NCBI RefSeq assembly: GCF_900182555.1
Contig: NZ_FXTH01000003.1
Coordinates: 124,001-188,000 of the forward strand
Length of the DNA stretch: 64,000 nucleotides
Source: Fodinibius sediminis
GTDB lineage: Bacteria; Bacteroidota; Rhodothermia; Balneolales; Balneolaceae
Reading direction: 5' to 3'
Part shown: piece by piece, positions 3,029-12,462 of the stretch
Numbering within the stretch: the first letter of the stretch is position 1
How the letters are laid out: the number at the start of each line of letters is the position of its first letter
Notes under the pieces: generated by a model
Seen by the model: only the letters and a program-made list of their open reading frames with translations
What the model was told of the DNA's origin: nothing
Databases searched by the model: none
Position numbers and translations under genes: made by a program

Positions 3029-4333
3029 ATGAAGGATATACTGCGATTTTTACGGGAAGCACGGATCGTTTATCTCCTATTCACTTCGTTAATAGTGCTG
3101 GGGGTCATTTTCGGCGCTTTTGAAATTATTGATCAAACCCTCCTGAAGGATACGCCTCAAAATACCATGCAGTGGCTTTATTTTAGCCGGGGTGTTCTGT
3201 CAGCACTCGTGCTGATGATTTGGGCGGCATGGACCGTATACAACTACCGCGAGTATTATGAAGATCAGCTTGAGGCCACCAAGCTGCGCTACAGCGATAT
3301 CATAGAGCACTCCGCGGATGCCATTATATCGCTGAATAACGACGGTACGGTTATCTCCTGGAATCACGGGGCCGAGGAGATGCTGGGGTGGCACCGGGAT
3401 GATATAATAGGCGAATCTATTGAAACCATTGTGCCCGATAAGCTTCTTGAGCTGAAAGAACTCGAGTATATTGATTCGGGCATGCGGTATCAGGGGTATA
3501 TACAAAATTTTGAAACCGAGCGCCTGACAAAAAGCGGAGAGAAAAAATTGGTGAATCTCACGGAATCTTTTGTCCGTAATGAGGAGGATGAAGTGGTGGG
3601 GCGCTCTTTGATATTGCGCGACCTGACCGATGTGAAAATGCGTGAAGAGCAGATACAGCAATCGGAGCGACTGGCTACCGTGGGACATATGGCAGCCGGT
3701 GTGGCACATGAGGTGGGAAATCCGCTTACCGCGATCTCATCGCTGGTACAGGTGTGTCAGCGCAAGACCGAGGATGAATTTATTCAGGACCAGCTCAAGA
3801 AGGTCCGCGAACACATTCAGCGAATCAATAAAATCGTGCGTGAGCTGGTAGACTTTTCCCGTCCCTCGAGCATGCAGACCGAGCATGTCCAGATCAATGA
3901 CATTATCAATTCCGCAGTAGGGCTGTTAAAACACGATGCCCGCTGCCGGGATGTGGCATTTGAGCTTCATCTTGCCGATAATCTTCCGATGATTCCTTGT
4001 GTGCCCGATCAGATCCATCAGGTTTTGGTCAACCTCCTGCTTAACGCAGTTGATGCGATGAAAGATGTCGCTGACCCCCGGATTGTTGTTTCCACCGAAA
4101 GATTAAAAAACACCGTCAAGTTAACAGTGTCCGATGTAGGCAAAGGAATTAAAGAAGAACATCAGTCCCGGATCTTTGAACCCTTTTTTACCACCAAGGA
4201 TGTGGGAAGAGGTACAGGACTTGGGCTGTCGGTGAGCCATGGCATAATAAACAAGATGGACGGTTCCATCCGCGCCGAATCTGAATATGGAGAAGGAACC
4301 ACCTTCATTATTAAACTGCCCATTAAAAAATAA
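3029..4333 (+). CDS. PAS-domain sensor histidine kinase, NtrB-like
   Basis: This is the membrane-anchored sensor partner of the downstream sigma-54 activator. Two hydrophobic segments (about residues 12-34 and 52-72) anchor it with a very short periplasmic loop. A PAS domain spans about 85-205. The dimerisation/phosphoacceptor helix carries H227 in the NtrB-type context H-E-V-G-N-P. The HATPase domain shows an N box (LLLNAVDAM), a G1 box (DVGKGI), an F box (FEPFFTTK) and a G2 box (GTGLGLS). The gene is followed after six bases by the response regulator gene, so the two are one operon. The small periplasmic part suggests that the signal is sensed in the membrane or by PAS. Confidence 0.9.
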   Translation: MKDILRFLREARIVYLLFTSLIVLGVIFGAFEIIDQTLLKDTPQNTMQWLYFSRGVLSALVLMIWAAWTVYNYREYYEDQLEATKLRYSDIIEHSADAIISLNNDGTVISWNHGAEEMLGWHRDDIIGESIETIVPDKLLELKELEYIDSGMRYQGYIQNFETERLTKSGEKKLVNLTESFVRNEEDEVVGRSLILRDLTDVKMREEQIQQSERLATVGHMAAGVAHEVGNPLTAISSLVQVCQRKTEDEFIQDQLKKVREHIQRINKIVRELVDFSRPSSMQTEHVQINDIINSAVGLLKHDARCRDVAFELHLADNLPMIPCVPDQIHQVLVNLLLNAVDAMKDVADPRIVVSTERLKNTVKLTVSDVGKGIKEEHQSRIFEPFFTTKDVGRGTGLGLSVSHGIINKMDGSIRAESEYGEGTTFIIKLPIKK

Positions 4334-4339
4334 GGAACT

Positions 4340-5698
4340 ATGAGAGGATCGATTTTAATTGCCGATGATGAATCGGGCATCCGTGAATCACTGACCATTG
4401 TGTTACAGGATGAGGGCTATCACTGTACGGCCGTTCAGAATGGTAAAGAGGCCATTGAGGCTATCAACAGTAAAAGTTTTGATATTATTATTTCGGATTT
4501 AAAGATGCCGAAAGTAGATGGTCTCGGGGTGCTGGAACATGCTCTTCAGCATTCTTCGGATACGCTGACCATCATCATTACGGCCCATGGTACGATAGAG
4601 ACGGCTATACAGGCGCTCCGTAAAGGGGCGGCTGACTATATTCTCAAGCCCCTGGATTTCGACGAGGTGTTGATTCGGGTTGAAAACCTCCTTGAGCAAA
4701 AGAAGGTGATACAGGAAAATAAATATCTCCGCGAGCAGATCGACCAGGAATACAATTTCAACCATATTATTGGTGAAAGCGATGCCATGAAGAGGGTCTA
4801 CAAGATGGTGGAAAGGGTCAGCGGGGCAACCAGTAACGTGCTTATTACCGGTGAAAGCGGGACGGGTAAAGAGCTGGTAGCACGGGCCATCCACTTTAAC
4901 GGCGACCGGGCCAAAAAACCATTTTTAGCCATCAACTGCGGGGCTATTCCGGAAGACCTGATTGAGTCTGAGCTCTTTGGTCATAAAAAGGGGGCCTTTA
5001 CAGGAGCGACATCTGATAAGGACGGCGTTTTTGTTGCCGCCCATGGGGGAACGGTTTTTCTGGATGAGGTAGCTGAAATTCCTTTGAATTTGCAGGTCAA
5101 CCTCTTGCGGGTGCTCCAGGAGCGGGAAGTTAAACCTGTCGGAGCTAATCAGAACATAAGTTTTGATACCCGTATTATCTCGGCCACGAACAAAGATCTG
5201 GCAAAAGAAATTGAAAACGGCACCTTCCGTGACGACCTCTATTACCGGCTTAATGTGGTGGAGCTTCAGTTGCCGTCACTGCAGCATCGGCGCGAGGATA
5301 TCCCGCTTCTGGCCCACCATTTTCTTCAGAAATACAATAAGGAGCTTAGCCAGAATATTAAAGGCGTATCCAGCGAAGCCATGAGTGCTATGATGGCCTA
5401 TGAATGGAAGGGGCAGGTCCGGGAGCTGGAAAATATCATTGAGCGTGCGGTATTACTTAGTGACAACGATTATCTCCTGCTGGAAGATCTCCCCAGTGCC
5501 ATTCGGGAAGTGGCTGATTCCGAAACCATGGAAATGGACACAGATACATTGGATCGGGCTGTACGGGTATTTGAGAAGCACCACATCCAAAGTATGCTCA
5601 GGCGTACGGAGGGGAATAAATCAGAAGCGGCGCGCCTGCTGGGTATTGACCCATCTACCCTTTATCGCAAGATGGAGCGGCTGGGCTTGTCGGAATAG
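4340..5698 (+). CDS. sigma-54-dependent response regulator, NtrC family
   Basis: This 452-residue activator has three domains. The receiver has D53 as phosphoacceptor, with D9, D10, T81 and K103. The AAA+ sigma-54 activation domain has Walker A GESGTGKE at 171-178, the GAFTGA sigma-54 contact loop at 218-223 and Walker B near 239-243. A C-terminal Fis-type helix-turn-helix occupies about 410-452. It should act as an ATP-driven remodeller of RNA polymerase-sigma-54, bound at distant upstream sites. It is paired with the preceding kinase. The best candidate target sites are the palindrome pairs at 7223-7268 and 11006-11051. Its stop lies 11 bases from the stop of the convergent YceI gene. Confidence 0.93.
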   Translation: MRGSILIADDESGIRESLTIVLQDEGYHCTAVQNGKEAIEAINSKSFDIIISDLKMPKVDGLGVLEHALQHSSDTLTIIITAHGTIETAIQALRKGAADYILKPLDFDEVLIRVENLLEQKKVIQENKYLREQIDQEYNFNHIIGESDAMKRVYKMVERVSGATSNVLITGESGTGKELVARAIHFNGDRAKKPFLAINCGAIPEDLIESELFGHKKGAFTGATSDKDGVFVAAHGGTVFLDEVAEIPLNLQVNLLRVLQEREVKPVGANQNISFDTRIISATNKDLAKEIENGTFRDDLYYRLNVVELQLPSLQHRREDIPLLAHHFLQKYNKELSQNIKGVSSEAMSAMMAYEWKGQVRELENIIERAVLLSDNDYLLLEDLPSAIREVADSETMEMDTDTLDRAVRVFEKHHIQSMLRRTEGNKSEAARLLGIDPSTLYRKMERLGLSE

Positions 5699-5709
5699 TT
5701 ACGTACGGT

Positions 5710-6435
5710 TTATGGACGGAAAGTCTTTCTGCCCAGTTTAACCTTCGTGGCTTGGGCCTCATGGGACTGGCTGAGGGTAACGGTAACGTCAAAAAGAACA
5801 TTCAGTGTTTTTTTTGCCCTGATAAGTCCAAACATGGTGCTCGGAGGCTCAATATCGTAGGTATCCATGTGAATCCGCTTTTGTCCCTTCACATGGAATT
5901 TATTCCCCTTGTGTATTCTGCCTTCTACTAGCACTGTGGTGGTGTCGCTAACTCCCGCAATTTCCATGACGCCGCGCGTACGGATCCTCATCCATTCGTC
6001 GTGGGAGGAAGATGCTTCTACCGAATCCTCCAGCGAAGCATCCAGCAGACGATAAGTGATGACGGGATGTTGGTCCTCTTTCAGGGCTCCATACATGTCC
6101 TGGTTCATCTTGCGTTTGCCGCAGTCCAGGGATTCAACAGGCAGAGAAATTGAAATGTGTACCTGCCCATCGCCGGTTACCGTTGAAGTTGGGTTCGCCG
6201 TGTTCTCAATATTTCCCTTGCCTGAAAGTTCCCGGGCTTGGCAGCTGAAGTCGACCGGTCCGGCTGAGCCTTTGATCCACAGTTTGCCTCCTTCATCAAT
6301 GGTTATATTGCCCGAGCCGGCGAGCGATTGTGCCTCGCCATGCAAGGGTAAAAGGAGCAGAAAAAGGAGCAGCAGGGCAATATGACTGCCTGCTGTCCAG
6401 ATGCTGTTTGTATAATATGTGGTGAGGCCCAACAT
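5710..6435 (-). CDS. YceI-family periplasmic protein (second of a tandem pair)
   Basis: YceI proteins are secreted lipocalin-like beta-barrels that bind polyisoprenoid or amphiphilic molecules. This 241-residue copy has a long hydrophobic leader (about residues 15-36), then the YceI beta-strand pattern. The typical 'HPVITYRL' strand (expected context D-H-P-x-I) is at about 125-132, and a closing 'PSTMFGLIRA..' strand pair lies near 195. It starts 19 bases after the stop of the upstream paralogue and so is the second gene of a two-gene operon. It is more divergent and has a longer N-terminus than its partner. The first ATG was kept, but a slightly later start is possible. Confidence 0.8.
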   Translation of the reverse strand: MLGLTTYYTNSIWTAGSHIALLLLFLLLLPLHGEAQSLAGSGNITIDEGGKLWIKGSAGPVDFSCQARELSGKGNIENTANPTSTVTGDGQVHISISLPVESLDCGKRKMNQDMYGALKEDQHPVITYRLLDASLEDSVEASSSHDEWMRIRTRGVMEIAGVSDTTTVLVEGRIHKGNKFHVKGQKRIHMDTYDIEPPSTMFGLIRAKKTLNVLFDVTVTLSQSHEAQATKVKLGRKTFRP

Positions 6436-6454: not shown

Positions 6455-7054
6455 TTATTGTTGAGAGAAAAAGAGTTCAAATGAAATAGTAACCATTTCT
6501 CCACTTTTAATAGTTCCAAACATAGCAGAGGGAGGATCAACATCGTAATCTTCCATGTTAAGTTCATAGGAACCGGTGAATTTATACGTGCCATCTTCTA
6601 CAACACTTCCTTCGACCGGAAAGTTTATTTCTTTGCTGACCCCTGCGATCGTAAGCGTACCGGAGGTGTTGAGGGTGAAGGTGGAGCCCGAAGACGATCC
6701 GTTCAGTTCAGCACTGGAAAGCTCAAAGGTGATATTGGGGTGGTCATCTTTCTTGAGGGCGTCATACATCTTTCCGTTCATGCGACCTTTGCCACTTTCC
6801 AGTTTCTCTACGGGAACGCGAAGCGAAAGGGAGGTAACCGGGCTGTTTTCGGCATCTGATGAAAGGGCGGCCGCGTCAAAATTAAAATTGGTGATATCTA
6901 TTTCTTCGGCATCAGCGGTCCAGTCGTGTATGGTTGAGGTACCGTCAACCTGCATGGTGCTTTTTTCAAGCAGGCTGTAGCCGGTCGATTGGGCAAGGAC
7001 ATTGCCACTGAAGGTAAAAAGGAATAAGAATATTGAAGCAAGTAAGGATTTCAT
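6455..7054 (-). CDS. YceI-family periplasmic protein (first of a tandem pair)
   Basis: This 199-residue protein has a clear signal peptide (residues 1-21, ending A-Q) and a canonical YceI barrel. It has 'IHDWTADA' near residue 43, 'DDHPNITFEL' near 100 and a closing 'DPPSAMFGTIKSG' near 172. It probably binds a lipid-like ligand in the periplasm. A -24/-12 promoter candidate lies at 7098-7113, just upstream of the start codon, and paired activator palindromes lie at 7223-7268. Expression is therefore predicted to depend on sigma-54 and an NtrC-type activator. Confidence 0.88.
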   Translation of the reverse strand: MKSLLASIFLFLFTFSGNVLAQSTGYSLLEKSTMQVDGTSTIHDWTADAEEIDITNFNFDAAALSSDAENSPVTSLSLRVPVEKLESGKGRMNGKMYDALKKDDHPNITFELSSAELNGSSSGSTFTLNTSGTLTIAGVSKEINFPVEGSVVEDGTYKFTGSYELNMEDYDVDPPSAMFGTIKSGEMVTISFELFFSQQ

Positions 7055-7097: not shown

Positions 7098-7113
7098 TGC
7101 AATCCCCGTTCCA
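7098..7113 (-). promoter_or_regulatory. sigma-54 promoter candidate for the YceI operon
   Basis: Read on the minus strand this is TGGAAC-GGGGA-TTGCA. It has the invariant GG at -24 and GC at -12 with exact sigma-54 spacing (consensus TGGCAC-N5-TTGCA). The start of transcription would fall near 7087, giving a leader of about 30 bases before the YceI ATG at 7054. Confidence 0.75.
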
Positions 7114-7222: not shown

Positions 7223-7268
7223 TTGCAGCTTTGCAACCAGGAGGCTTGCATCCGTTGCAGCTATGCAA
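7223..7268. promoter_or_regulatory. paired activator palindromes (upstream activating sequence)
   Basis: Two perfect palindromes of the form TTGCA-N4-TGCAA lie at 7223-7236 (spacer GCTT) and 7255-7268 (spacer GCTA). Their centres are 32 bp apart, about three helical turns. They sit about 142 and 174 bp upstream of the predicted YceI transcription start, and about 138 and 170 bp upstream of the predicted start for the divergent receiver gene. This is the geometry of an NtrC-type enhancer shared by two divergent sigma-54 promoters. The binder is inferred to be the activator at 4340-5698. Confidence 0.75.
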
Positions 7269-7371
7269 TACCCGGTTATTAATTTTTGCATGTAAAGGGT
7301 AATGCATCAGTAAAATCCGGCATGAGGATGCACAGGCCGATAAAAAATAAAAGCGATAAACCAGAAAAGAA

Positions 7372-7387
7372 TGGTCTGCAAATTGCA
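7372..7387 (+). promoter_or_regulatory. sigma-54 promoter candidate for the lone receiver gene
   Basis: The plus strand reads TGGTCT-GCAAA-TTGCA. It has GG and GC at correct -24/-12 spacing, although the TCT following TGG departs from the CAC of the consensus. Transcription would start near 7399, about 38 bases before the receiver gene. Confidence 0.55.
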
Positions 7388-7436
7388 TTGATATAAGGTA
7401 GAGTACCTGAAAAACCTTCATAAAACCTTTGAGACA

Positions 7437-7805
7437 ATGCAACAGCGAGCTATTCTTATTGCAGATCAGGAGGAAGCTGTAAGCGACTCGCTTGAGCTGG
7501 TATTGAGTGATGAAGGATACAGATGTTTCACCAGCTCCAGTAAATCAGAAATATTGGATATACTGCAAGCAGAAGCTATTGCAATTGTGATTCTGGATAG
7601 CCAGCTGGCTATGAAAACAGGATTGCCTCAAATTATAAAGGCGCGGTATCCCTCGGTTAAGTCCATCATCATCAGCTCCTATGCCGCACTTGAAAGCATT
7701 CAGCTGGCTCTGATGGATAGTACCAGTGGCATTATACTGAAACCGCTGGATTTCGATGAACTGATCCGGCTGGTAAAACGGATGATTACTCCCGCTGGCA
7801 GGTAA
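7437..7805 (+). CDS. single-domain response regulator (receiver only)
   Basis: This 122-residue protein is a stand-alone receiver domain. D54 is the predicted phosphoacceptor and K102 the conserved lysine, in 'LKPLDFDE', a motif it shares with the NtrC-like protein encoded at 4340-5698. The threonine position is a serine (S80). The acidic pair is weakened: D10 is kept, the next residue is Gln, and an acidic residue follows at 12. There is no output domain. The strong resemblance to the activator's receiver suggests derivation from it and a role as phosphate sink or competitor in the same phosphorelay. That role is inference. It appears to share the 7223-7268 enhancer. Confidence 0.8.
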   Translation: MQQRAILIADQEEAVSDSLELVLSDEGYRCFTSSSKSEILDILQAEAIAIVILDSQLAMKTGLPQIIKARYPSVKSIIISSYAALESIQLALMDSTSGIILKPLDFDELIRLVKRMITPAGR

Positions 7806-9291
7806 AAAGAGCTCCTCCTGATCCCTCTTTGGTTAACACTTCTTTTCTTAAGACCCGCAGCCTACTGTTTTATTTCAGCTTTTTATACAAAATGGGGCGA
7901 TCCAGCGGATTGCTCATCAGTCCAGTTACAGCATCCTGTCTGTAATTCCATTCCTTGCCGGGATGAGAGGGTAGAATTCAATTCGGTTTTCATGGGGATT
8001 GTCCGGAGGAAACAGATTGCCAAACCCTTGATTAGGGGCCTGCAGGCGGAATCGCCCCTGATTGTAATCCTTTTTGACTGACTATAGTATGGCATCTAGT
8101 ATACAGTCGTGAACGGGAGGAGCTTCCTGCCCTGCTGTTCCAGGCATCGGATACCGTATGATGGTACTCTCCCATGAAAATGAGAACATGATCCCCCCGC
8201 CGGGCAGTCACAATTACCCCCATAAAACTGGGGCAAAGACAAGGGAGCGGTCACGACAGGCCGCGGGCTCGTGTCAACCGGAATGGTACAGGTAACCTCT
8301 TTTGGTCGGCCGGGTCAGCGGCTCCCGTGACTGCTGAGCGTTATACGCTTGAAGTTCAACCTCTACATCCGCATGGAGGTAAATCTCATAGCTGGCGATA
8401 GGTATGGGAAAATCCATTTTCGGAGTACCTTCAGATCCAATAATAGCTTCTTTGACCAAAACTTCTACAGCCAGTGCTTCAGAATTAATTGTGAGTTAAT
8501 TCATTCGTCTCTCCGGCAACCCAAAAATATCTCTGTGGGATATTTATCGGTAAGCACTTTATTCTAATAGTTGAATGACTTCTGAGAAGTTTTCTAAACT
8601 GTTCTGTCCTGCAGGCTGGCAAAGCAACAGCTTTTTAGATAGCTGCTGATGGTGTGGTCCCGAAAACTCCGGGTTGTAACAGTAATTGTTACATGGACCT
8701 GCGTTACCGGCTACGCCTCGCCCCCTGTCAGGAGGTCAAGCCCCTGCGGCTTTTAAGTGTGATATTCTTTTTAACGATGAAAAGTACCTGCAGTGATGGC
8801 GTCCTTGGGTTAGGCCCCCGGCCACAAATCGAAGGTCTGAGAGTCTCTGTACCTATTTGCGCCGTTAATTGCAGAGATCTGGCAGTGAGATCAAGCTCCA
8901 ACCTGACTTGGAGTGCTGCAAATATTGATACACTGCCGGCATTCCCTTCCGTATGACGTGAACACCTGGGATCTGCCCAATAACCCTTGACCGACTCATT
9001 GATAGAGACTGGATACTGCAGGATTTTTTGCCTGTGAATACTGCTAAATGGTTCCAGATGCAGACAGGAGACCGTATGCATCGGTGTACGTGGTGATCTG
9101 TTGGAGCGCGGTTGGCAGGAGTGTAACCAATAACGGGACACGGATACAGGAAAAGGGGCAGAGAGGAGTTGATTTTCAGCGGTTGCTTTCAGGAAGTGTT
9201 CAGGGAAGCAAAGGGTGATGTTTCATCAATCCAGCGGCATGAATAGACCGTTGGACCAGCGATCGAATGGGCGGATTAGCAGAAGTACCAT
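7806..9291. other. 1.5 kb with no intact gene; decayed coding remnants
   Basis: No frame in this stretch has a convincing start, length and composition together. Short frames exist on both strands but are rich in Cys, Ser, Arg and Trp, as expected of chance translation. The exception is the minus-strand fragment at 8274-8490, described separately. The region looks like gene decay between the receiver and porin genes. Confidence 0.5.
8274..8490 (-). pseudogene. fragment of a decayed gene, C-terminal part
   Basis: On the minus strand about 70 codons up to a TGA at 8274-8276 have protein-like composition, for example 'MDFPIPIASYEIYLHADVEV'. The frame has no ATG at a sensible place: it is open back to a TAA about 10 codons upstream of a TTG. 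A neighbouring frame continues the plausible sequence for a few codons, suggesting an old frameshift. I do not recognise the family. Confidence 0.3.
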
Positions 9292-9327
9292 AAAAAAAAC
9301 GATGCCACCATATCATGGTGACATCGT
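9292..9327 (-). terminator. intrinsic terminator of the porin gene
   Basis: On the minus strand a 13-bp stem (ACGATG-T-CACCAT paired with ATGGTG-G-CATCGT, GAT loop, one G-T pair) is followed by eight Ts. It lies about 80 bases after the porin stop codon. Confidence 0.9.
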
Positions 9328-9407
9328 TGTAGGGATTAGGGATTAGGAAATGTAATGTTCAGGGCTATAGATGAGTTCTCTTTATGAGTTAGTCAGGACC
9401 TTTTGGG

Positions 9408-10733
9408 TTAGAAACTGATGACGGCTTCAAGCATGACTCCGTCGAATTCTGCGTTGTCATAGGGGCCATCCACGTAAGCTTCGCCGTCGTAGGACTGTTT
9501 TACGTATTCAAGCTTGGCCAGGACGTTTTTGGTGAGGAACCATCCGCCGCCGATGTTGAAGCGGTCGACTTCAAGGTCGCCATTCAGGCTTTCACCATCG
9601 ACGTAGTTGTAGCGTCCGCCGAGGTAGACGTTTTCGTTGGCTCCAAAGCGATAGAGGAGTTCGGCGCCATATTGGTTGTAGGTACGTGAGTCATCGACAC
9701 CATTTTTGATTTTACCCGTTGCATTTTCGTACAGGCCGAAGAATTCAAGACCGCCAACCTTAACGAAGGGGTTAATCATGATGGCTGTCATCTCACCGGC
9801 AGCTGGCGTAGCACCTCGTCCTGGTGTGAAGCTGGGAGCAATGCGACCGCTGCGGAAGTTGCCCGCCTCGATGACGTCGTAGTACCGGGCTCCAGCACGG
9901 TCACCGGAGTACAGATAGATCGATGAAGAGTTGGATACATTGAGGATGGATCCCGTTAAGCGAAGGTGTAATGCATCACCCATTTTTTTCTCATATCCCA
10001 ACTTGCCATACACAGTTGCGTGTGTTTTGATATCTCCGGCTTCCACACTTTGGTTCAGCTTGCCATTGCTAACGCCGAACATGGCCAGCAGGCCTTCGTT
10101 GTAATAATAAAGTTCGCCGGCTACCTCCGTGGTGAAAGAATCCATCAGGTAGTTGCCAACAAAGGGATTGTGGATGGCAAAGGCGTTATCCGATCGACGG
10201 AAGTGGGCATCGCCGTAGTTGAGCTCCATGTGACCTACTTTAATACGGATTTTATCCATCAGTCCGGAAAGCAGTCCCTCCTGAATAAAGTCCAGGCGAT
10301 CTACCTGCATATACCCGCTCTTGACGTAGGCTTCCGTGTGGTGCTGGGAGGTCAGGTAAGTGCGCAGGTGCATACGCAGTCCATCCCCCAGTGCCACGTC
10401 AAGGTCCAGATTTGAAGTAGCGAGGTTGAAGTTGGATTCCAGATCAGGCAAGGTGCTCATTATAGGTTCGCCGTTTTCATCGACCCCTGTTTGCCACGGG
10501 CCGGCATTGTCCTGGCTCAGACCTTGAAACTGCAGCGTGTTGGCCCCGCCAATGCGGACATTTACGCCGTCAAATTCAACGTCGGTTTCGAAGGGAGCTT
10601 CAAACTGGTTGAGTCCCCGCTGATCCGGATACGTATAATATTGTAGATCCCGATCGAATTGTGCGAAAGCACTTCCCGCCATCATGAAGAAGCCGAGAAG
10701 GAATAAGGTGATATATTGTATGGAGGATTTCAT
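9408..10733 (-). CDS. outer-membrane porin-like beta-barrel
   Basis: This 441-residue secreted protein has a signal peptide (residues 1-24, ending A-F-A-Q). Amphipathic beta-strands run through the rest and end in a C-terminal Phe, as outer-membrane barrels do. The organisation resembles the phosphate-selective/DcaP-like porin superfamily seen in Bacteroidota, with an N-terminal globular or coiled part followed by about 16 strands. The substrate is unknown. A PhoX-like phosphatase gene lies upstream on the same strand, which would fit phosphorus acquisition, but this is only context. A -24/-12 promoter candidate at 10862-10877 and paired palindromes at 11006-11051 suggest sigma-54 control. 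It ends at a strong terminator. Confidence 0.75.
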   Translation of the reverse strand: MKSSIQYITLFLLGFFMMAGSAFAQFDRDLQYYTYPDQRGLNQFEAPFETDVEFDGVNVRIGGANTLQFQGLSQDNAGPWQTGVDENGEPIMSTLPDLESNFNLATSNLDLDVALGDGLRMHLRTYLTSQHHTEAYVKSGYMQVDRLDFIQEGLLSGLMDKIRIKVGHMELNYGDAHFRRSDNAFAIHNPFVGNYLMDSFTTEVAGELYYYNEGLLAMFGVSNGKLNQSVEAGDIKTHATVYGKLGYEKKMGDALHLRLTGSILNVSNSSSIYLYSGDRAGARYYDVIEAGNFRSGRIAPSFTPGRGATPAAGEMTAIMINPFVKVGGLEFFGLYENATGKIKNGVDDSRTYNQYGAELLYRFGANENVYLGGRYNYVDGESLNGDLEVDRFNIGGGWFLTKNVLAKLEYVKQSYDGEAYVDGPYDNAEFDGVMLEAVISF

Positions 10734-10861
10734 GATGATACCCTGTTTTGGTTATGTTTAGTTAGTACTTGTTTATTTTAAATTCTGGTCAGTAATTTTC
10801 TTGAATCTCTTTGGCTAGGTATTGGTTTTAACCATCACCATTGTGTTCTATGGGTAATGAT

Positions 10862-10877
10862 TACAACATCTGTTCCA
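10862..10877 (-). promoter_or_regulatory. sigma-54 promoter candidate for the porin
   Basis: The minus strand reads TGGAAC-AGATG-TTGTA. The -24 half is identical to that of the YceI promoter and the spacing is exact. The -12 GC is GT here, so this is weaker than the YceI site. Transcription would start near 10851, leaving a leader of about 118 bases. Confidence 0.5.
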
Positions 10878-11005
10878 AAAAGGTAAGAGCGGGCCAAAAA
10901 AATATGCAGAACCCTCAAAGGGAGGCTTTACGAGCTGTGAGAAAGGGTTTTACAGAATCTTTTTTTTAGAGCGGGAGGAGCCGGATAACCGCAGATATGA
11001 AGGTG

Positions 11006-11051
11006 TTGCAGTATTGCAAGGCTGCAGCAAGAGCCAGATGCAATACTGCAA
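11006..11051. promoter_or_regulatory. paired activator palindromes upstream of the porin
   Basis: TTGCA-GTAT-TGCAA at 11006-11019 and ATGCA-ATAC-TGCAA at 11038-11051 repeat the motif found at 7223-7268. The centres are again 32 bp apart. They lie about 161 and 193 bp upstream of the predicted porin transcription start. Together the two sites also form a 14-bp inverted repeat that could fold into a hairpin after the PhoX-like gene, whose stop is at 11068. Confidence 0.7.
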
Positions 11052-11067: not shown

Positions 11068-12462
11068 TCAGCCGCGGGCCTTTTCCCAGGGACCCGTGAT
11101 GGCGAGCGTGATGCCGGAGTGCTGGATGTTCATAAACAGCGTCGACCCGTCGGGAGAGAAGGTAGCGCCTGCCAGCTCGGAATTGGATTTGGCGTTGAGA
11201 CCGAGCTTATACACTTGTCCCTCGGGGGTAATGCCGTTAAGGTGTTGTTGTTCCCCGGTATCTTCACAGACAAGCAGGTCGCCCCAGGGAGCAACGGTGA
11301 GATTATCCGCATTTTCGATGATGGTACTGTCCAGTGATTCGACGAAGAGTTCGAGGGTGCCCGGGGCATCCGCTTCTCCGGAAGCAGCTTCGGATGAGCT
11401 GGGCGTATATTTCCAGATTTGTCCCAATTTTTCCGGCCCGCCGTTGGTACAGGCAAAGTAGACGGCATCATTTCCGTACCACATGCCTTCGCCTCGGGCA
11501 AACCGTGCGGCCCCGTCTTCAAAGCCGCGATATCTCAAGTCGTCATCAGGGTTGTCTACATCTTTGACGTCGATCCATTTGCTGTCAAACTTTTGACCTA
11601 CCTCAACGGTTCGTGAGCCCCAGTTCCGGGTGTCAAGGCTGGCATGTCCCCGGATGGCCAGGGCCTGCAATCGTCCACCGTCAAGCAGCTGGCCCGGCGT
11701 ATTGGGGATATACCGGTAGAGCAGTCCTTCTGAATCGTCTTCGGTGAGGTAGACAACCCCGCTGCCGGGATCAACAGCCACCGCTTCATGGTTAAAGCGG
11801 CCCATTGCTTTTATGGGGGTCGGGGTTGCCCGTCCAATTTCAGTACTGGCCGGGACTTCAAAGACGTAGCCGTGACTTTTGGCATAGACGTCATCCGGAT
11901 GGGTAACAATTTCTTCGCAGGTCAGCCAGCTGTTCCAGGGCGTAGCCCCGCCCGCACAGTTGCGCAGGGTGCCCGCCAGGCTTAGAAATTCTCGTACTAC
12001 GGTTTGTGTTTCAGTATCATATACGACCGTTGTAGTACCGCCCTGTCCGGGGTTGTTATCCTGTCCCGGATCATAAAATTCGTTCGCACCTAATTTGTCG
12101 GTGAGGGCAAAATCCTCGCCAAAGGCACTTTCGGCTCCTCCCTTGGCGGCATTAACCTCGTGATTGCGGATCAGGATAGTAAGCCCGTCCGGTCCGGGGA
12201 ATGTGGCCATACCATCCGGCCGGTGGGGTACATACAGTCCATCATCCATCTTGTCGCCAAAGGTGGAAATAATTTTATAGGAAAACCCCTCTGGAAGGTC
12301 AAAAAGTCCGTTGGGATCGGCTTTCAGCGAGCCAAAAGGTTCCGTGATAAGTCGTGTGGGGGCTCCTTCGGATGTGCTGCACCCGCTAAAAATGTACAGC
12401 CCTGAAAATCCGAGGGTAAGCGCTCCGGCCTGTTTTAAAAAGTGTTTGCGCGAAATCGACAT
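11068..12462 (-). CDS. PhoX-family (DUF839) alkaline phosphatase-like protein
   Basis: This 464-residue exported beta-propeller protein belongs to the PhoX/DUF839 family, known as Ca/Fe-dependent alkaline phosphatases. The N-terminus has a Tat-like motif S-R-K-H-F-L-K (residues 4-10, with RK instead of RR) and then a lipobox-like F-S-G-C at 25-28. It is probably a Tat-exported lipoprotein. Family landmarks are 'RNHEVN', 'GTLRNCAGG.TPWNSWLTCEE' (split here by one residue), 'GRFNHEAVAVDP', 'YLTEDD' and a C-terminal 'ITGPW'. The predicted role is release of phosphate from organic esters at the cell surface or periplasm. Some DUF839 proteins have no known activity. The downstream neighbour is a porin on the same strand with its own promoter. 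Confidence 0.85.
   Translation of the reverse strand: MSISRKHFLKQAGALTLGFSGLYIFSGCSTSEGAPTRLITEPFGSLKADPNGLFDLPEGFSYKIISTFGDKMDDGLYVPHRPDGMATFPGPDGLTILIRNHEVNAAKGGAESAFGEDFALTDKLGANEFYDPGQDNNPGQGGTTTVVYDTETQTVVREFLSLAGTLRNCAGGATPWNSWLTCEEIVTHPDDVYAKSHGYVFEVPASTEIGRATPTPIKAMGRFNHEAVAVDPGSGVVYLTEDDSEGLLYRYIPNTPGQLLDGGRLQALAIRGHASLDTRNWGSRTVEVGQKFDSKWIDVKDVDNPDDDLRYRGFEDGAARFARGEGMWYGNDAVYFACTNGGPEKLGQIWKYTPSSSEAASGEADAPGTLELFVESLDSTIIENADNLTVAPWGDLLVCEDTGEQQHLNGITPEGQVYKLGLNAKSNSELAGATFSPDGSTLFMNIQHSGITLAITGPWEKARG

Follow-up and report, generated by a model that had tools for sequence, protein, structure and literature searches.

At the glnA promoter NtrC, an activator built of receiver, AAA and Fis-type helix-turn-helix (HTH) domains, binds two dimer sites that lie about three helix turns apart and 100-150 bp upstream of a -24/-12 promoter. 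A comparable arrangement was examined here in a stretch of 64,000 nucleotides of Fodinibius sediminis (contig NZ_FXTH01000003.1, positions 124,001 to 188,000; this whole stretch is called the window), in which two pairs of TTGCAN4TGCAA palindromes lie close to genes for a sensor kinase and an NtrC-type activator. The pairs are very probably (we put it at about 0.87) enhancers, that is upstream activating sequences, for the two-component activator encoded next door, and they would define a new regulon in which a two-component sigma-54 activator is predicted to act directly on nosZ, the gene of nitrous-oxide reductase. The predicted system of the window shares with NtrC at glnA the spacing, the distance and the domain architecture, but the half-site sequence differs, no nitrogen-assimilation gene was found among the paired-palindrome targets looked at, and the NtrC (NR-I) equivalog cut-off was missed (TIGR01818, 442.2 of 558.6).

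The best NCBIfam match of kinase and activator alike is AtoSC of E. coli (AtoS kinase, AtoC activator, atoDAEB promoter), although both proteins miss the equivalog cut-offs (kinase 314.8 of 646; activator 471.5 of 714, NF008469). According to an excerpt of PMC3118216, AtoC has two 20-bp inverted sites upstream of a sigma-54 promoter, a likeness to the paired palindromes, while its printed consensus there, GCkATrCrrnnATTTrCwCA, is unlike TTGCAN4TGCAA. Moreover, the target genes of AtoSC differ from those of the paired-palindrome regulon.

The nearest functional parallels are NorR and NtrYX, which differ from the window system in architecture or box. NorR detects NO directly and lacks a receiver domain, whereas a receiver domain and a kinase are present here; the NorR equivalog NF003451 was missed (340.1 of 476), with a match that begins only at profile position 166. 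NorR is described as a sigma-54 activator of N-oxide genes with three tandem GT-N7-AC palindromes (PMC1274295, excerpt). The NtrYX system of Paracoccus denitrificans, a two-component system of the NtrC family, affects denitrification and NosZ activity, and the excerpt that reports this gives an NtrX box of C(A/T)-N10-GC and an unaffected nosZ transcription (PMC9409073); the NtrX equivalog NF051870 was missed as well (401.5 of 600). In proteobacteria, nir, nor and nos genes are regulated by DNR/NnrR of the FNR family (PMC1274295, excerpt). Their kinds of targets are similar to those found here, but they are not sigma-54 activators and their box differs. Sigma-54 promoters have been mapped in the flavobacterium Flavobacterium psychrophilum (PMC9723704, excerpt). 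A search by titles and abstract openings, with subscription journals mostly outside its coverage, returned no published description of the regulon, of sigma-54 in Balneolaceae or of sigma-54 control of nosZ.

Paired palindromes and sigma-54-like elements of the window

The original prediction had reported two TTGCA-N4-TGCAA pairs at 32 bp, a near-consensus yceI promoter and an NtrC-like activator beside them. All of these are present, except that the last site of the second pair carries one mismatch. The start-to-start spacing is 32 bp in both pairs (7223/7255 and 11006/11038). The sites, the sigma-54-like elements and the genes concerned are as follows.

7223-7236, no strand assigned: predicted activator site 1, exact palindrome
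7255-7268, no strand assigned: predicted activator site 2, exact palindrome, 32 bp from site 1
11006-11019, no strand assigned: predicted activator site 3, exact palindrome
11038-11051, no strand assigned: predicted activator site 4, ATGCAATACTGCAA, one mismatch, 32 bp from site 3
7098-7113, minus strand: putative sigma-54 -24/-12 element of yceI, TGGAACGGGGATTGCA, score 17.1 of 17.5
10862-10877, minus strand: sigma-54-like element of the porin-like gene, TGGAACAGATGTTGTA, score 15.8, 153 bp from the pair centre
7372-7387, plus strand: divergent sigma-54-like element of the lone receiver gene, TGGTCTGCAAATTGCA, score 15.7, 128 bp from the pair centre
3029-4333, plus strand: sensor histidine kinase (PAS, HisKA and HATPase_c by Pfam; two hydrophobic segments by eye; best NCBIfam model AtoS, below cut-off)
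4340-5698, plus strand: NtrC-type sigma-54 activator (receiver, AAA+ and Fis-type HTH by Pfam)
6455-7054, minus strand: YceI-like gene, first predicted target (Pfam YceI 54.7 bits; synteny in 15/15 genomes including the window)
5710-6435, minus strand: a further YceI-like gene, probably belonging to the yceI operon (24.9 bits on Pfam YceI, cut-off 23.7; synteny)
7437-7805, plus strand: stand-alone receiver-domain protein of 122 aa with an incomplete acidic pair (Pfam Response_reg; alignment of 15)
9408-10733, minus strand: porin-like protein of 441 aa, predicted target, its name weakly supported (no Pfam match; 19.7 bits on the NCBIfam LbtU porin model, cut-off 90)

From the pair centre to the -24 GG we measured 134 bp for the yceI promoter and 153 bp for the porin-like promoter, close to the approximately 140-195 bp noted earlier. 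The yceI element is the sole one scoring at least 16 of 17.5 in the window. No further pairs were found there beyond the two known loci and their sub-registers, at spacings of 22-24 and 31-34 bp and with up to four mismatches in total; one-mismatch single palindromes number 6 against 2.94 expected. The divergent element TGGTCTGCAAATTGCA, absent from the original prediction, sits on the side of the first pair opposite to yceI and upstream of the receiver gene. Hence a single enhancer would lie between two divergent sigma-54-like promoters, and the element at 7372-7387 could drive the lone receiver gene from the enhancer that also serves yceI.

The activator has all three domains above cut-off (PF00072 97.2, PF00158 241 and PF02954 56.6 bits) and its translation contains the GAFTGA loop and the Walker A sequence GESGTGKE. 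A sigma-54 gene is found in the same genome (TIGR02395 437.2 bits, cut-off 277.35; G000:C12), and rpoN is present in 12/12 genomes of the genus.

Distribution of the pairs across the family

In the 50 contigs of the F. sediminis genome (4,434,397 bases) only two 32-bp pairs are found when three mismatches are tolerated, both at the window loci and each before a sigma-54-like element, and the reversed-pattern control gave none; exact pairs at one fixed spacing are expected at about 4e-6 to 1.5e-5 per genome. Exact single palindromes number 6, with 4.1 (mononucleotide) or 8.1 (Markov-1, window composition) expected.

The search was extended to 92 genomes of the family, 12 of which belong to Fodinibius, the genus where the closest activator orthologs were found. 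Orthologs 71-89% identical to the activator of the window (E<=1e-150) are encoded in 15/92 genomes, namely the 12 of the genus plus G034, G037 and G074; the alignment crosses one stop in G034, whose frame is 448 aa. With three mismatches tolerated, 32-bp pairs occur in all 12 genus genomes (37 pairs; reversed control 1) and in 10 of the 80 others (11 pairs; reversed control 5); among those ten, pairs with no more than one mismatch are confined to G034 and G074. The 40 regions fetched, together with the window, cover 43/48 pairs, the other five being three-mismatch pairs in G032, G047, G052, G069 and G076. A sequence-only model was then built from 36 pairs, that is the 37 with at most two mismatches minus the one in G055. 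At E<0.02 it matches 14/15 activator genomes and 0/77 others (Fisher 1e-15), or, counted by genus, 3/4 against 0/17 (P = 0.003). In G037, the genome missed, each of the two orthologous places holds a degenerate pair spaced by 33 bp, one with 2+1 and the other with 1+1 mismatches; the sigma-54-like elements there score 17.1 for yceI, 16 for the receiver and 15.7 for the porin-like gene. Among the weak model matches, those inspected (L183, L184 and L186 from activator-less genomes and L180 from an activator genome) contain no pair at up to four mismatches.

Gene order is likewise conserved. The succession kinase, activator, yceI, yceI, enhancer, receiver is found in 15/15 genomes including the window, a kinase ortholog adjoining the activator in all 14 others, and a pair lies in the yceI-receiver interval in 15/15, approximately 1.5-3 kb from the end of the activator gene. 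The porin-like gene also has a pair in 15/15; its ortholog is at the locus in 14 of them and on another contig in G074, there with an exact 31-bp pair. A distant relative of the activator (L073, 53% identity) has neither a pair nor yceI neighbours in the surrounding 21 kb. The activator's recognition segment EAARLLGIDPSTLYRKMER is identical in 14/15 orthologs, with one change in G037. Phyletic co-occurrence, conserved synteny and this near-invariant segment together support the earlier proposal that the activator reads the motif.

The sigma-54-like elements follow the pairs. In the activator genomes the yceI-side element scores at least 15.6 in 15/15 and the receiver-side element at least 15.2 in 14/15, none being listed for G015 at a threshold of 15.4. 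The element of the porin-like locus reaches 15.4 or more in 12/15, a threshold at which none is listed for G012 and G016; in G074 it scores 14.6. A score of at least 15 within 80-170 bp was obtained for 9/9, 15/15, 6/13 and 2/6 pairs with 0, 1, 2 and 3 mismatches respectively, one of the two passing three-mismatch pairs being a second register of a real pair; random positions reach the criterion at 1.2% per side (5208 draws). Lowering the score to 14.5 brings the two-mismatch pairs to 10/13. Of the three that fail, two stand before nosZ operons and narrowly miss the limits, one by score (14.1 at 110 bp) and the other by distance (16.6 at 76 bp); the third is in G055, a genome without the activator.

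When the spacing was left free between 17 and 47 bp, the genus yielded 26 matches, at 32 (15), 33 (3), 31 (3), 23 (3) and 24 bp (2), both 24-bp matches being sub-registers of 32-bp pairs, while the reversed control gave no match in the 12 genomes. One alcohol-dehydrogenase pair is spaced by 34 bp. Spacings of about two or three helix turns fit the accommodation of two dimers on one face of the DNA. Over 41 promoters the distance from the pair centre to the -24 element runs from 101 to 153 bp with a best period of 10.75 bp, for which P = 0.0001 per class-and-distance (34 values) and, weakly, P = 0.025 per distance (24 values). The helical phasing between pair and promoter is suggestive.

The nosZ operon and other predicted targets

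To our knowledge no biological sink of N2O other than NosZ is well established, and we know of little on the control of the Sec-dependent form outside the proteobacteria. The F. sediminis NosZ is of this form (TIGR04246 934.6 bits, cut-off 625). Upstream of its cytochrome c and NosZ genes, the exact site at C3:243845 forms a 33-bp pair with a one-mismatch site, and the element TGGCACGTAAATTGTT (score 16.3) lies 132 bp from the centre of that pair. This nosZ and both NirK genes of the genome are on the contig of the window (C3, of which the window is 124001-188000), some 9-55 kb past the window end.

Across the family NosZ occurs in 54/92 genomes, 30 of which yielded loci for comparison. Upstream of nosZ, a pair with no more than two mismatches is found in 12/14 activator-bearing loci (11/11 in the genus, plus G074) and in 0/16 loci examined from activator-less genomes, where the best has five mismatches. 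The association with the activator has P = 1e-6. A null draw reached 4% at up to two mismatches; sampled stretches with genuine second pairs are the probable cause, and no P value was taken from it.

Seventeen NirK-type loci of the genus fall into a short type, below the family cut-off, with a pair in 6/7, a 378-aa type with a pair in 2/5 and a long type with none in 5. Against TIGR02376 (cut-off 296.3) the 378-aa type of G010 scores 383.9 and the 377-aa type of G009 193.2. Neither of the two F. sediminis NirK genes has a pair within 1.3-1.5 kb upstream. An alcohol dehydrogenase ortholog, present in 6/12 genus genomes and not in F. sediminis, has a pair in 6/6 at 32, 33 or 34 bp, the two-mismatch pair of G014 being read off the printed sequence. 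TonB-like genes with a two-mismatch pair were found in G014, G017, G018 and G019 (Pfam TonB_C was tested on that of G017). Two frames, both named by eye, are single cases: one in G015 resembles a pyridine-nucleotide-disulfide oxidoreductase and one in G017 a short-chain dehydrogenase.

The regulon is thus larger than originally described, the receiver promoter, the nosZ operon and the other targets having been missing from that account. The set is best read as a two-component, sigma-54-dependent respiratory regulon, and the target list points to nitrogen-oxide respiration. Since NosZ and NirK are copper enzymes, copper supply is a possibility as the signal instead.

Proposed mechanism, rival explanations and neighbouring genes

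From the sites, their spacing, the promoter-like elements, the phyletic link and the target genes, we infer binding, activation, looping and feedback, as well as a low-oxygen or nitrogen-oxide signal. The kinase would phosphorylate the activator, dimers of which would occupy both palindromes on one DNA face, about three helix turns apart or, in the 23-bp variants, about two. The bound dimers would seed an AAA+ ring, which would loop over 100-155 bp to the sigma-54 RNA polymerase at the -24/-12 element and open the promoter. The one enhancer serving the divergent yceI and lone receiver promoters would provide a built-in feedback. The N-terminus of the kinase has two hydrophobic segments joined by a linker of some 25-30 residues (by eye); with so short a linker, the kinase probably perceives its signal within the membrane or through its PAS domain.

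A wider picture may be drawn, to which we give about even odds. In Fodinibius and at least the sister genus of G074, the reduction of nitrous oxide would have a two-component sigma-54 switch of its own, which in some species would also govern nitrite reduction; control would then not be left solely to the FNR- or NorR-type regulators known elsewhere. The kinase, seemingly almost without a periplasmic domain, would sense the respiratory state in the membrane or via PAS, and the co-induced, fast-evolving lone receiver would brake the kinase or the activator. The regulator, its DNA word, the spacing rule and the target list are all readable from the sequence, and the predictions are testable in species kept as strains (Fodinibius roseus DSM 21986 and Fodinibius halophilus 2W32). 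In addition, a natural enhancer set whose spacing differs by about one helix turn would be useful for studying dimer spacing and helical phase in activator assembly.

Several observations weigh against the assignment of the pairs to this activator. Single palindromes occur at chance level, neither rarer nor commoner; they were dropped as evidence, and the signal consequently resides in the pair. The concern raised earlier, a motif occurring often and without relation to -24/-12 elements, therefore applies to single sites and not to pairs, as 24/24 pairs with at most one mismatch have an element 80-170 bp away. The sigma-54 score is a simple scale (maximum 17.5) that weights an assumed consensus, TGGCACG-N4-TTGCW, and both the 80-170 bp range and the score thresholds were fixed after a first look. 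The model was trained on the genomes searched and its E<0.02 line was set after the list had been viewed; 14/77 activator-less genomes have model matches at E 0.02-0.3, all of them partial. One genus supplies 12 of the 15 activator genomes, so that the counts are not independent. Finally, G034 and G037 bear the activator and have no pair before nosZ, and 9/17 NirK-type genes of the genus, including both of F. sediminis, are without a pair. To these is added the distribution of three other activators, which bears on the first of the alternatives.

Seven PF00158 proteins are encoded in the F. sediminis genome, and the pairs could be sigma-54 enhancers read by another of them. Orthologs of L194 and L197 exist in 4/4 pair-less genomes examined and of L198 in 3/4 (58-72% identity), so these three do not track the motif. 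L196, L199 and L200, however, have no close ortholog in the same four genomes (best approximately 40-43% identity), and their distribution could in principle match that of the pairs. We consider it unlikely that one of them is the reader, given that it is the window activator whose gene lies near the pair of the yceI-receiver interval in every one of the 15 genomes and whose recognition segment hardly varies. It is less probable still, and by a good deal, that the palindromes are operators of a regulator independent of sigma-54, a repressor or an FNR/CRP-like protein, standing near sigma-54-like promoters by coincidence. Palindromes of about this size do serve elsewhere as FNR/DNR-type boxes that control nir, nor and nos genes (CTTGATN4ATCAAG; PMC1274295, excerpt), but the strict pairing at 31-33 or 23-24 bp, the position approximately 100-155 bp upstream of -24/-12 elements, the suggestive 10-11 bp periodicity and the joint occurrence with a sigma-54 activator are more in keeping with enhancers than with boxes close to the promoter. 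The chance level of single palindromes could also be taken to mean that the pairs are chance palindromes, or a dispersed repeat. Such an origin seems hardly credible: pairs at a fixed spacing are expected at about 1e-5 per genome, whereas they recur in 12/12 genus genomes before the same genes, their positions being kept across species while the spacer and N4 bases differ from pair to pair. Enhancers of the NtrC-type activator encoded next door are thus the reading that we retain.

Of the exact single palindromes of the genome, the one at C19:46328 is probably due to chance, as it falls within a 403-aa frame and no sigma-54-like element is listed for it. Another, at C21:30291 (L006, 1501-1514), is upstream of a 294-aa membrane-protein-like frame, the homolog of which in G009 (L063) has a weak three-mismatch pair and a sigma-54-like element. 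This gene is a possible further target.

The lone receiver diverges fast. Its identity is 33-71% in the 11 loci where it is its own best match, compared with 70-88% for the activator, and in G016, G034 and G074 its best match is the receiver of the activator (25-30%). In the orthologs of G012 and G017 another residue stands in place of the aspartate presumed to accept the phosphoryl group (by eye). Our guess is that it has a feedback role that does not always depend on phosphorylation.

Between the receiver and porin-like genes, approximately 1.6 kb (7806-9407) contain short overlapping frames and no evident gene, and the gap at the equivalent place in F. roseus is longer (~3 kb). On the other side of the porin-like gene and on the same strand, a PhoX-family gene (11068-12462) has its 3' end 16 bp from the second pair. 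Some species have PhoX as the upstream neighbour of the porin-like locus, whereas others have a gene for an RND pump there.

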